Source: Steroidobacteraceae bacterium (GTDB lineage: Bacteria > Pseudomonadota > Gammaproteobacteria > Steroidobacterales > Steroidobacteraceae). From it: a DNA stretch of 64,000 bases. The position numbers were made by a program, and so were the translations under genes. This document shows, piece by piece, positions 51,047-55,345 of this stretch. The notes beneath the pieces are model-generated. The model was not told where the DNA came from and made no database searches. It was given only the letters and a program-made list of their open reading frames with translations. The DNA is taken from the NCBI GenBank assembly GCA_017853555.1, contig JAFMJH010000002.1, positions 1 through 64,000 on the forward strand. Reading direction: 5' to 3'. Every line of letters begins with the position of its first letter. Positions within the stretch are counted from its first letter, which is position 1.

Positions 51047-51104
51047 GGTCGGATACTCCATTGGTGACTGAGTCGTCGTGGGCGCTCCTGCGCACGACCC
51101 GGGG

Positions 51105-51171
51105 TTGACGAGATAAAGGATGACAGGCTGTACAGGTTCTGTCAATATCTTGTACAGGATGAGAATGTACA
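51105..51171. promoter_or_regulatory. Divergent promoter region with three TGTACA sites
   Basis: Between the fasciclin and CarH-like genes are three copies of the palindromic hexamer TGTACA at 51129-51134, 51151-51156 and 51166-51171 (22 and 15 bases apart). The first coincides with the -10 position for a TTGACG -35 box at 51105-51110 (18-base spacer) reading toward the regulator. TTGACA on the minus strand (51140-51145) may be the -35 of the fasciclin promoter. The last site abuts the regulator start, suggesting autorepression. Confidence 0.55.
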
Positions 51172-51172
51172 A

Positions 51173-52114
51173 ATGATGAACAAACCGGCGCACAACGGTG
51201 CCAGTGGTCAATTCACGATCAAAGCCGTGGCCCAAGCCACCGGACTCACGGTCGAGACCCTGCGGGCCTGGGAGCGTCGCTATGCCGTCGTCTCGCCTTC
51301 GCGCGACGCCTCCGGGCGGCGCACGTATTCAGCCGTCGATGTCGCCCGTTTGCGCTTGCTGCGCAGCGCGACCGAACTCGGCCACACCATCAGCCGGCTC
51401 GCGCCGCTGTCGGCCGACGATCTCGCCAAGCTCGTCGCTGATTCGGGCGGGCAGGCACGTCCCGGTCCCGCGCGCGGGCAGATGTACGTCGAGCGCGCCC
51501 TGGATGCGACCGAGCATTCGGACCCGGGCGGCGTCGAAGATGCGCTGACCTCCGCGGTCGCCTTGCTGCCGCCCAACGAAGTCGTGCACACCGTCATCGT
51601 GCCGCTGGTGCGCGAGGTGGGCGAGCGTTGGCACCGCGGCGAAGTGTCCATCGCGCAAGAGCACATGGTCACGGACATCGTGCGACGGCTCGTGATCTCC
51701 GTCACCCGCGGCTATCTGCGCTCGGACAACGGTCCGTGTCTCGTGCTGGCGACGCTCTCGGGCGAACGGCACGAACTCGGCATTTTGATGTGCAGCTGGT
51801 TGGCCGCGACCCGACGCTTCCGCACCCATTATCTCGGTGCCGATTGCCCGGCCGAAGAAATCGCGCGTTTCGCGCTCGAAGTCGAAGCCGCCGCCGTGCT
51901 GGTGTCGATCGTGATGCCGGAAAACGAAGTTCCCGCTCTGCAGCAGCTCGACGTGCTCGCCCATCAGCTTCATAACAAATGTGAAATATGGTTGGGCGGC
52001 TTCGCGGCGCGGTTGGTGGCCGCCGACCGTATTCCGGACGGTTGCGTGATGTTGCCCACCGGACAGGATTTCGAACAACGACTCGATTTGCTCGCCGCCC
52101 AATTCCCGGGTTAG
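51173..52114 (+). CDS. MerR-family B12-binding regulator, CarH/LitR type
   Basis: A 313-residue regulator. Residues 12-75 are a MerR winged helix ('TIKAVAQATGLTVETLRAWE'). The C-terminal half is a cobalamin-binding module: the helical cap has Trp153-x9-Glu163-His164 ('WHRGEVSIAQEH'), the adenosylcobalamin-cap motif of light-sensing CarH, and the Rossmann part has Glu198-x-His200-x-x-Gly203 ('GERHELG'), the cobalt ligand. It should bind DNA in the dark with AdoCbl and release it in light. It is divergent from a fasciclin gene. Confidence 0.88.
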   Translation: MMNKPAHNGASGQFTIKAVAQATGLTVETLRAWERRYAVVSPSRDASGRRTYSAVDVARLRLLRSATELGHTISRLAPLSADDLAKLVADSGGQARPGPARGQMYVERALDATEHSDPGGVEDALTSAVALLPPNEVVHTVIVPLVREVGERWHRGEVSIAQEHMVTDIVRRLVISVTRGYLRSDNGPCLVLATLSGERHELGILMCSWLAATRRFRTHYLGADCPAEEIARFALEVEAAAVLVSIVMPENEVPALQQLDVLAHQLHNKCEIWLGGFAARLVAADRIPDGCVMLPTGQDFEQRLDLLAAQFPG

Positions 52115-52151: not shown

Positions 52152-53921
52152 ATGCGCGTCGCACTCGTGGTGTGCGTGGCGGCACTGTTGGTGTCGTGCG
52201 GTGGCGGTGGTGGTGGCAGCGGCGCGTCGTTCTTCGCGCCGACGGCTGCGACCGTGCCCTCCGTCAGCAAAGCCGAAGCCTACCGATTTTTGAATCAGGC
52301 GACCTTCGGCGCCACCGAAGCCGATGCCGCCAAACTCATCGCGCTCGGCGATTCCTCCAACGCCTATTCACGCTGGATCGACGCCGAAATCGCCAAACCC
52401 GCCAGCGTGCAATTGCAGGCCGTCGAGTTGGCGTATCCGAACCCCGTGCCGACCGGCTTCAGCGTCGCGACGCTGCATGCCAATCGTGCCGAGCAGTGGT
52501 TCTACAACGCGATGCGCGGCGACGATCAACTGCGTCAACGCGTCGCCTTCGCGCTCTCCGAAATCATGGTGGTGTCGCAAGTCGGCACTTTGATCAACTA
52601 CCCGTTTGCCACCGCCGACTTTCACGACACGTTGGCGCGCAACGCGTTCGCGAATTTCCGCGTGCTGATCGAACAGGTCTCGTTGCACCCGGCGATGGGC
52701 ATCTACCTGAACATGCTCGGCAACCAGAAAGCCGTCGCCGGCACGAATCTGCGGCCGGACGAAAACTATGCCCGCGAGATGATGCAGTTGTTCACGATCG
52801 GTCTCGTGCAACTGAACATCGACGGCACCGAGAAAAAAGACGCGAGCGGTCAGCCGCTGCCGACGTACACCCAGGACATCATCGAAGGGTTCGCGCGCGC
52901 GATGACCGGCTGGAATTGGTCGTGTCCGACTACGCGTCCGACCTGCACCTTCACGACCACGAGCGGTCAATTCGCGCCCGTGTTCGGCTACAACCAAGTC
53001 AAGGCCTTGGCGCAGTACGCGCCGCAACACGAGACCGGCACCAAGCAACTGCTGACTTACTCCGGCGTCGCCTTGCCGAACGGTCTCGTGCCGGCCAATC
53101 AGACCGGCGAAAAAGATTTGCAGGATGCGCTCGACAACGCGTTCAACCACCCGAACGTCGGCCCCTTCATCGCCAAGCAGCTCATCCAGAAACTCGTCAC
53201 CAGCAATCCGACGCCGGCCTACGTGCAGCGCGTGGCCGAAAAGTTCAACAACGACGGCAGCGGCGTGCGCGGCAATCTCGCCGCCGTCGTCAAGGCGATT
53301 CTGCTCGACGCCGAAGCGCGCAACGCGCCGAGTGGCAGTGCGACGGCGACCGCCGGCAAACTCAAAGAACCGTTGTTGCGCTTGACGCAGTTCTGGCGCG
53401 CGTACGGCGCGACCTCGGCGAGCGGCAAACTCGGCGCCGCCCGCAATTTTTCCGGCGGTGCCTTCAACGTGTTCGGCGAGGCGCCGGGGCAGTCGCCGTC
53501 GGTGTTCAACTTCTACAGCCCGTTCTATGCGCCGCCGGGCGAAATCGCGAACGCGAACCTCGTCGCGCCGGAGTTGCAGCTCTCCACCGAATATCTGGTC
53601 GCGCAGCAGGCCAACTTCTATTACACGCAGGCGTTCGCGCGCACGCACATGCAGGCGGCTACGCTCACGGCGGATGACGTCTACATCAACGTGACCGACG
53701 AACTCGGCGTCGCGACCGATTCCGAGGCCTTGGTGAACCGCGTAGCGGAGCGACTGCTCGGCGGCAGCACGCAGCTCTCGACCACGCTCAAAAACGAGAC
53801 CAAGGCGCAGATCGAACGTACGGCGCTGACCGCCACCAACCAAAGCACTGCGTTGCCGATTCGAGTCGCGGACGCGATCTACATGATCTCGACCTCGCCC
53901 GAATTCGCGTTGCAGCGCTGA
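52152..53921 (+). CDS. DUF1800 family lipoprotein
   Basis: A 589-residue exported protein with a lipobox, 'VAALLVSCGGGGG', and a poly-Gly linker. The DUF1800 domain is recognisable from 'AYRFLNQATFGATEADAAKL', 'ENYAREMMQLFTIGLVQLN' and 'HPNVGPFIAKQLIQKLVTSN'. These proteins occur paired with DUF1501 proteins across bacteria; their function is unknown. The DUF1501 gene follows after 17 bases. Confidence 0.9.
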   Translation: MRVALVVCVAALLVSCGGGGGGSGASFFAPTAATVPSVSKAEAYRFLNQATFGATEADAAKLIALGDSSNAYSRWIDAEIAKPASVQLQAVELAYPNPVPTGFSVATLHANRAEQWFYNAMRGDDQLRQRVAFALSEIMVVSQVGTLINYPFATADFHDTLARNAFANFRVLIEQVSLHPAMGIYLNMLGNQKAVAGTNLRPDENYAREMMQLFTIGLVQLNIDGTEKKDASGQPLPTYTQDIIEGFARAMTGWNWSCPTTRPTCTFTTTSGQFAPVFGYNQVKALAQYAPQHETGTKQLLTYSGVALPNGLVPANQTGEKDLQDALDNAFNHPNVGPFIAKQLIQKLVTSNPTPAYVQRVAEKFNNDGSGVRGNLAAVVKAILLDAEARNAPSGSATATAGKLKEPLLRLTQFWRAYGATSASGKLGAARNFSGGAFNVFGEAPGQSPSVFNFYSPFYAPPGEIANANLVAPELQLSTEYLVAQQANFYYTQAFARTHMQAATLTADDVYINVTDELGVATDSEALVNRVAERLLGGSTQLSTTLKNETKAQIERTALTATNQSTALPIRVADAIYMISTSPEFALQR

Positions 53922-53938: not shown

Positions 53939-55345
53939 ATGCACGTACCACGTCGCAAGTTTTTACAGGCCGCCGCAGCCGGTGGTGTGGCGTACGCGTT
54001 CGGCCGTACCGTCGGCACGATCCAGGCCGAGATGAGCGCGATCGACGGCTTCCCCGACTACAAGGCACTGGTCTGTCTGTTTTTGTTCGGCGGCAACGAT
54101 TCCTGGAACATGTTCGTGCCGACGAGCACCGCCGAGTACAACGCCTATTTCAAAGCGCGCGCCGGCGGCACCAGCGGCAGCATCGCGATCGACAAAAGCG
54201 CGTTGTTGCCGGTGACGCAAATCGGGCAGACCGCCGGGGATCCGACTTACGGGTTTCATCCGAGCATGAGCGGTGCGCGTGATCTGTTCGCGGCGGGCAA
54301 GCTCGCGGTGATGGCGAACGTCGGCACGCTCATCCGGCCGACGACGAAAACGCAGTATGCGACCGCGAATGCCACCGGATATGCGTTGCCGCCGCAATTG
54401 TTTTCGCACAACGATCAGCAAGACCAATGGCACAGCCTGCGCGGCAAAGCCATCGTCCGTTCGGGTTGGGCGGGGCGCATCGCCGACGTGCTCAACGCGC
54501 AACTCGGTGGACAACAACTGTCGACGAATCTGTCGCTCGCCGGGCAGACTTTTTTCCAGGCAGGCGATGTGGTCACGCCGTTCGTGATGGGCTCGACCGG
54601 TGCGACCACGTTCACCGGTTTCGGTACCACGGGCACGGCACTCGGCCGACGCAACGCGGTGCAAGCGGTGTTGTCGGGGAGCACGACCGCGACGGCGAAC
54701 ACGATGTACGAGCGCGCGCAGGCGCAAGTCACCCAGCGCTCCGTGCAGTTCGCCGACCGCATCAACACGGCGCTCGCCAATTCCTACAATTTTGCCGCGC
54801 TGCCGAACACCGGCGTGACGCTCTCGACGCTCGCGACGCAGCTGCGAACGGTCGCGAAGATGATCGCCGTGCGTTCGCAATTGTCGATGTCGCGCCAGGT
54901 GTTCTTCGTATCGCTCGGCGGCTTCGATCTGCACGACAACCTGATGACCAGCCATCCGGGACTTTTGTCGACGGTGAGCGGCGGCATCAAATCGTTCTTC
55001 GACGCGCTGGCCGAAGTCGGCATGGACAACTCGGTGACGCTGTTCACGCAGTCGGACTTCGCCCGCACGCTCACCTCGAACGGTGACGGGTCTGATCACG
55101 CCTGGGGCGGTGTGCAGCTGGTTGCCGGGGGCGCCGTGCGCGGCGGACGAATCTACGGCCAATATCCGTTGATCGAAGTCGGCAGCGCGCAGGATGTCGG
55201 CGGCGGTCGCTTCATTCCGTCGATCTCGGCCGATCAGATGGCCGCGACGCTCGCCAGTTGGTTCGGCGTGCAGGATGCCGATCTCAACAAAATCACGCCC
55301 AGTCTCGTGAACTTCCCGCAGCGCAATCTCGGCTTCATGGTCTGA
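53939..55345 (+). CDS. DUF1501 family protein with Tat-like signal
   Basis: A 468-residue protein of the DUF1501 family, partner of the DUF1800 gene upstream. The N-terminus 'VPRRKFLQAAAAGGVAYAFG' is a twin-arginine-type signal, so export in folded form is likely. 'LVCLFLFGGNDSWNMFVPT' is the conserved opening, and 'FDLHDN' with 'SDFARTLTSNGDGSDHAWGG' carries the metal-site-like Asp and His of an alkaline-phosphatase-like fold. Function unknown. Confidence 0.9.
   Translation: MHVPRRKFLQAAAAGGVAYAFGRTVGTIQAEMSAIDGFPDYKALVCLFLFGGNDSWNMFVPTSTAEYNAYFKARAGGTSGSIAIDKSALLPVTQIGQTAGDPTYGFHPSMSGARDLFAAGKLAVMANVGTLIRPTTKTQYATANATGYALPPQLFSHNDQQDQWHSLRGKAIVRSGWAGRIADVLNAQLGGQQLSTNLSLAGQTFFQAGDVVTPFVMGSTGATTFTGFGTTGTALGRRNAVQAVLSGSTTATANTMYERAQAQVTQRSVQFADRINTALANSYNFAALPNTGVTLSTLATQLRTVAKMIAVRSQLSMSRQVFFVSLGGFDLHDNLMTSHPGLLSTVSGGIKSFFDALAEVGMDNSVTLFTQSDFARTLTSNGDGSDHAWGGVQLVAGGAVRGGRIYGQYPLIEVGSAQDVGGGRFIPSISADQMAATLASWFGVQDADLNKITPSLVNFPQRNLGFMV

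Follow-up and report, generated by a model that had tools for sequence, protein, structure and literature searches.

The 64,000-nucleotide stretch of Steroidobacteraceae DNA analyzed here (the window) carries a gene, litR/carH, whose product, judged from its sequence, is a class I LitR/CarH-type regulator, and the fasciclin gene that faces it is very likely repressed by CarH and induced by light. The second assignment is drawn from the conserved footprint between the two genes, from the overlap of that footprint with the fasciclin -35 box, and from the changed -35 box where the fasciclin is absent; the earlier note, made from the letters alone, had already named the fasciclin as the regulator's target, and these three observations bear it out.

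Table 1. Features of the litR-fasciclin region and of the small RNA candidate (positions are those of the window unless a contig is given)
Feature	Position	Strand	Remark
Fasciclin (FAS1) gene, 162 aa	50558..51046	-	signal-peptide-like N terminus, by eye
Shine-Dalgarno-like GGAG of fasciclin	51056..51059	-	sequence, by eye
Fasciclin -10 box CATCCT	51117..51122	-	17-bp spacer, TGT before
Fasciclin -35 box TTGACA	51140..51145	-	inside operator; TTGACA in 18/18 distinct fasciclin loci
Three tandem 11-bp CarH half-sites TGTACA, TTGACA, TGTACA	51129..51156	-	exact 11-bp steps
Dyad operator TGTnnA-N5-TGTnnA-N9-TnnACA-N5-TnnACA	51140..51182	.	16/16 positions
litR-side half-sites TGTACA, TGAACA	51166..51182	+	overlap litR start codon
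litR/carH, 313 aa	51173..52114	+	MerR HTH, helical B12-binding and Rossmann B12-binding domains
DUF1800 protein	52152..53921	+	37 bp after litR
DUF1501 protein	53939..55345	+	next after DUF1800
Own small RNA candidate copy (L240)	G000:C51:120575-120650	-	outside window

The regulator, the fasciclin, and their neighbors

Pfam finds MerR_1, B12-binding_2, and B12-binding on the LitR protein, the three domains of class I, and Thermus CarH (5c8d) matches it at an E value of 2.6e-30 and 29% identity, the W..EH and ERHE segments of the two lining up; the CarH/LitR type named in the earlier note thus stands. In Thermus CarH, W131 and E141 touch the adenosyl group; the ligand is H177 in the dark and H132 in the light (PMC10442372). 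All four, including the EH motif at E141, have counterparts in the window's LitR, namely W153, E163-H164 (spaced W153-x9-E163-H164), H200, and H154. The cobalamin signature had been given correctly as Trp153-x9-Glu-His with His200, and H154 can be added to it. In a 54-row alignment, the window's clade (19 rows) keeps W153, H154, E163, H164, E198, and H200 without exception. An AF2 model of LitR (pLDDT 85.6) gave 50 PDB matches listed by Foldseek, all of them Thermus CarH entries, and the B12 domain alone reached a TMt of up to 0.86. On the NCBIfam model TransRegCarH, however, LitR scores 136.8 bits, under the cutoff of 400, and for this reason we file it as a CarH-type class I LitR and not as an equivalog of CarH. 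Nor does it belong to class II, which has the helical B12 domain alone, since both PF02310 and H200 are found in it. A LitR search of the assembly (2.48 Mb, 74 contigs, 94% complete) returned one full homologue, the second match (E 6e-4) being confined to residues 13-74; an adenosyltransferase and a cobalamin riboswitch are found in the same genome. The range 51105-52114 given earlier takes in part of the promoter, because the open reading frame begins at 51173, and relatives point to the ATG at 51176 rather than 51173 as the start. No position could be assigned to a litR promoter.

The divergent neighbor is the fasciclin gene, as previously claimed: PF02469 scores 114.6 bits (E 4.3e-33, cutoff 22), and this is the sole fasciclin match in the assembly. 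Its single bacterial FAS1 domain recalls Fdp (RSP_1409) of Rhodobacter sphaeroides; chain 1w7d, which we take to be that protein, matches at an E value of 1e-28. As described in PMC7074977 and PMC7561615, Fdp is under RpoE and Prr control, not under a B12 photoreceptor. The fasciclin profile detected no fasciclin beside litR in the available sequence of loci from other lineages (L044-L071 and L094-L127).

Several features of the neighborhood may be recorded here. The fasciclin leader (51060-51100, minus strand) could form a hairpin with a GCAGGA loop, as it could in many relatives, which resembles a CsrA/RsmA site; the consensus structure from an alignment of the relatives had no pairs for it. 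By eye, no terminator was seen in the gap between litR and the DUF1800 gene, and the two are possibly cotranscribed. The DUF1800 gene lies downstream of litR in 10 of the 11 other genus loci, in L039 after intervening genes, and is absent from L040. In eight relatives (L033-L038, L040, and L042) a PF01717 cobalamin-independent methionine synthase-like gene follows the fasciclin, and the window has a short-chain dehydrogenase at that position. In the fasciclin-less loci L032, L039, and L041, a flavin amine oxidase gene faces litR. The near relatives L072-L088 are metagenome-assembled genomes, among them Steroidobacteraceae and Nevskiaceae, and some relatives' isolate names suggest an origin in lake water.

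The likely operator between the two genes

TGTACA occurs five times in the window, and three of the copies (51129, 51151, and 51166) lie between litR and fasciclin; shuffled windows held a mean of 1.65 copies, and five were reached in 1 of 100 shuffles. The earlier note had read the three as palindromes filling the shared promoter. They are present, but none of the 20 further distinct upstream regions in the alignment has the copy at 51129, and those at 51151 and 51166 fall within a conserved footprint; the conserved feature is an 11-bp register of TnnACA, and we have therefore dropped the view of three independent palindromes in favor of half-sites within a dyad. Published CarH targets are 11-bp repeats of the form nnnnTnnACAn, and in Thermus the -35 element lies inside one of three such repeats (PMC9304148). 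The same arrangement of direct TnnACA repeats in 11-bp steps, overlapping a -35 box, is found on the minus strand at 51129-51156. Two other layouts were considered and ruled out: the PplR1-type TGTACA-N12-TGTACA does not fit the gaps of 16 and 9 bases in the window, and a MerR activator acting on a stretched spacer does not fit a fasciclin promoter with a spacer of 17.

In the 2.48-Mb assembly, the strict three-half-site pattern has a single match, on the fasciclin strand between litR and fasciclin. A photolyase/cryptochrome-type gene is present in the assembly and no further strict operator exists, in keeping with the proposal that the target is not a photolyase. Across the genus, 17 of the 24 genomes hold the strict pattern, with 17 matches in all; 16 of these are at litR and the other, in G151, has no litR within its 3 kb; the reversed-pattern control gave 2 matches, and 7 of the 24 genomes have no strict match. 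A search for the shorter TGTACA-N5-TTGACA gave 20 matches spread over 17 genomes of the 24 (control, 0); of these matches, 17 lie between litR and fasciclin and 3 adjoin an ABC-F gene. Fifteen genus relatives have three tandem half-sites over the start of litR, on the litR strand.

Alignment of 36 upstream regions, reduced to 21 distinct rows by removal of 15 duplicates, shows two facing pairs of half-sites, a 43-bp dyad, and a single dyad spans both the litR and the fasciclin sides. Twelve genus loci (the window and L032-L042) were scored for it, with 9 at 16/16, 2 at 15, and 1 at 14, and the three loci without a fasciclin keep it at 14-15/16. In L043, from another genus, the fasciclin is kept, the dyad center is 10 bp, and the score is 9/16. 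Over 527,362 positions (the window plus 40 litR loci) there are 14 sites scoring at least 15/16, all at litR starts. The dyad layout was drawn from the alignment before counting, and these counts therefore describe the layout; the fairer controls are the strict published-motif search and a scan of 34 alternative dyad spacings over the same positions, which gave 0 or 1 site each.

The fasciclin promoter is embedded in this operator. Of the 21 distinct related loci (which are not independent of one another), 18 have a fasciclin gene divergently oriented to litR, each with TTGACA-N17-CAnnnT; the -10 box reads CAnnnT in all 18 and is directly preceded by TGT in 17. The CATCCT of the window is a weak -10 box. 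In the three loci without a fasciclin, the -35 box reads TTGACG, TTGACG, or GTGACG and the -10 box CACGGT or CACGGC; since these three form one clade, the promoter change counts as one event. Since the -35 box doubles as the dyad's outer half-site, a protein bound there should block RNA polymerase.

The closest model is Thermus thermophilus CarH, a class I LitR, which the window's system resembles in its three domains, its cap and ligand residues, its divergent neighbor gene, and its TnnACA half-sites in 11-bp steps that include a -35 box. The neighbors differ, being phytoene synthase and photolyase in Thermus and a fasciclin here, and published CarH sites are tandem arrays of three or four repeats, whereas the site described here is a dyad of two facing 11-bp pairs around a 9-bp center. 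In Sorangium cellulosum, one site likewise serves carH and a divergent target (crtI-carH), but that target is a carotenoid gene and the site has one full and two imperfect repeats (PMC9304148). The Pseudomonas class II proteins PplR1 and PmlR2 share with the window's system repression, TGTACA half-sites, and a pair over the -35 box, but not the spacing (TGTACA-N12-TGTACA) or the architecture, having the helical B12 domain alone, and PmlR2 has a LOV partner (PMC9758184). By these accounts, the targets of class I CarH/LitR proteins are mostly carotenoid genes (PMC9304148, PMC9758184). A literature search over titles and the beginnings of abstracts found nothing on a fasciclin paired with CarH, LitR, or cobalamin.

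The proposed switch and its rivals

We consider it probable that a CarH-type AdoCbl repressor acts on the 43-bp dyad and that light releases it, so that fasciclin and litR are expressed. In the dark, AdoCbl would be held from below by H200 and capped by W153 and E163, and AdoCbl-bound LitR would oligomerize on the dyad, over the fasciclin -35 box and the litR start, with both genes off. Light would break the Co-C bond, H154 would become a ligand, and the oligomer would leave the DNA; fasciclin and litR would then be expressed, perhaps with the DUF1800/DUF1501 pair. AdoCbl binding, release by light, repression, autoregulation, and the role of the fasciclin are all steps that we infer. The same site could be purely autoregulatory, LitR controlling itself alone with the fasciclin as a bystander, and both the tandem half-sites at the start of litR in 15 relatives within the genus and the retention of a 14-15/16 dyad in the three fasciclin-less loci speak for this. 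We nevertheless think this unlikely, as the half-site nearest the fasciclin is its own -35 box, TTGACA in 18 of 18 loci that have the gene and altered in the three that lack it, and as the window's strict operator lies on the fasciclin strand in a single dyad that spans both genes. We give similarly little credence to the idea that LitR senses B12, as the level of AdoCbl, and that light is irrelevant in nature. The cobalamin riboswitch and adenosyltransferase of the genome would suit such a sensor, as would the methionine synthase-like gene beyond the fasciclin in eight relatives, though not in the window; set against them is that none of the 19 rows of the window's clade departs from H154 or the EH motif, where the other LitR clade has R164 in 27 of 28 rows.

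What the fasciclin does once expressed is a separate matter. With the regulation as proposed, it could serve photooxidative protection, for example by binding pigment or lipid, rather than adhesion, a reading to which we assign somewhat less than an even chance. RSP_1409 is in the R. sphaeroides RpoE table for photooxidative stress, with log2 values of 2.8 and 4.5 (PMC7074977), light-induced genes tabulated for M. kansasii include two fasciclins (PMC9861118), and the astaxanthin-binding fasciclin 8c18 matches the window's fasciclin at 2e-11. Yet inactivation of fdp lowered adherence about 100-fold, and in the same paper fdp is not significantly changed by light in wild-type R. sphaeroides, a 3-fold change being given for the PrrA mutant only (PMC7561615). 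By analogy, a role in adhesion is plausible.

The other LitR clade and a small RNA candidate

A second clade of LitR proteins (L044-L071), 42-52% identical to that of the window, has R at position 164 in 27 of 28 rows, turning EH into ER, and lacks H154 in 2; H164 is found in the 7 rows from Acidobacteria, Myxococcus, and Thermus. The ER form suggests an altered photochemistry or a B12 sensor with no light response. Mla-type genes follow litR in this clade, with a cluster-c2 lipoprotein gene downstream in 22 of 28 loci, and the gene directly upstream belongs to the ABC-F cluster in 16 of 28 or is GGDEF/EAL-like, assigned by eye, in 9 of 28; these neighbor counts rest on single-linkage gene clusters that merge different ABC proteins. 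Pfam scans of examples gave ABC_trans_aux, MlaD, MlaE, and ABC-F-type domains. The dyad scores at least 14 in 9 of the 28 loci. A tree made by a quick method, with long outgroup branches, separates the fasciclin clade from the ABC-F/Mla clade and gives no order among these two and the Myxococcus and Acidobacteria rows. That the dyad is shared and that the RNA described below lies beside ABC-F suggest that litR has moved between the fasciclin and the ABC-F/Mla places, in either direction.

In 11 of the 28 other-clade loci, an RNA model detects a candidate RNA of about 65 nt divergent from litR; 7 of the 11 are in the model's alignment, and L044, L046, L047, and L051 are outside it. The unit consists of a half-site, a TTGACA-like box, a -10-like box, a conserved GACGAGTGACCCC-like core, a terminator hairpin, and a T run. 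Full-length matches above 40 bits occur in 20 of 396 genomes (the model's alignment includes 17 and lacks G157, G058, and G073), 13 of them in the window's genus and all beside ABC-F, the other 7 all beside litR. Of 13 RNA loci from the window's genus that were examined, 10 have ABC-F together with Mla genes and no litR between them, and 3 have ABC-F only. Two genomes with no fasciclin at litR, G032 and G049, keep ABC-F beside Mla and have no RNA match there, and G089, which has the fasciclin, has no RNA-model match. Rfam gave no match above the gathering score on L203, L215, L233, L022, or L016, and the three weak matches on L016 do not fall on the candidate. The matches at L258, L261, and L262 come from outside the family and are terminator look-alikes with no ABC-F or litR within 3 kb; a match at L268 (G032) was also set aside, by eye, and most weaker matches span just the model's terminator half.

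The 14 genus RNA copies scored vary in their dyads, with scores of 16/16 in 3 (L219, L221, and L222), 13-15 in 3, and 9-12 in 8, and the window genome's own copy scores 12/16, a score that is reached or exceeded an expected 0.3 times per 64 kb of sequence simulated from the window. Because so many copies score 9-12, the own copy among them, control of the RNA by the window's LitR is uncertain. That a B12 photoreceptor controls both a secreted FAS1 protein and the RNA through the shared dyad, the RNA in trans in at least some species, we advance tentatively and with some doubt; we hold it lower because the RNA is found at only 11 of the 28 other-clade loci and the tree does not settle how the clades are related. 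On this reading, litR faces the RNA in part of the other clade, and in the window's genus it faces the fasciclin across a promoter and operator laid out alike. A literature search found no report of a light-regulated small RNA under a CarH-type regulator, which is what this dual output would amount to if true.

For the biology of these uncultured bacteria, the main point is that an assembly 94% complete has one strict CarH operator and that this operator points to a secreted protein, so that vitamin B12 and daylight could be linked to the cell surface in a way open to testing. A possible second output is the conserved small RNA candidate, whose promoter is of the CarH type.
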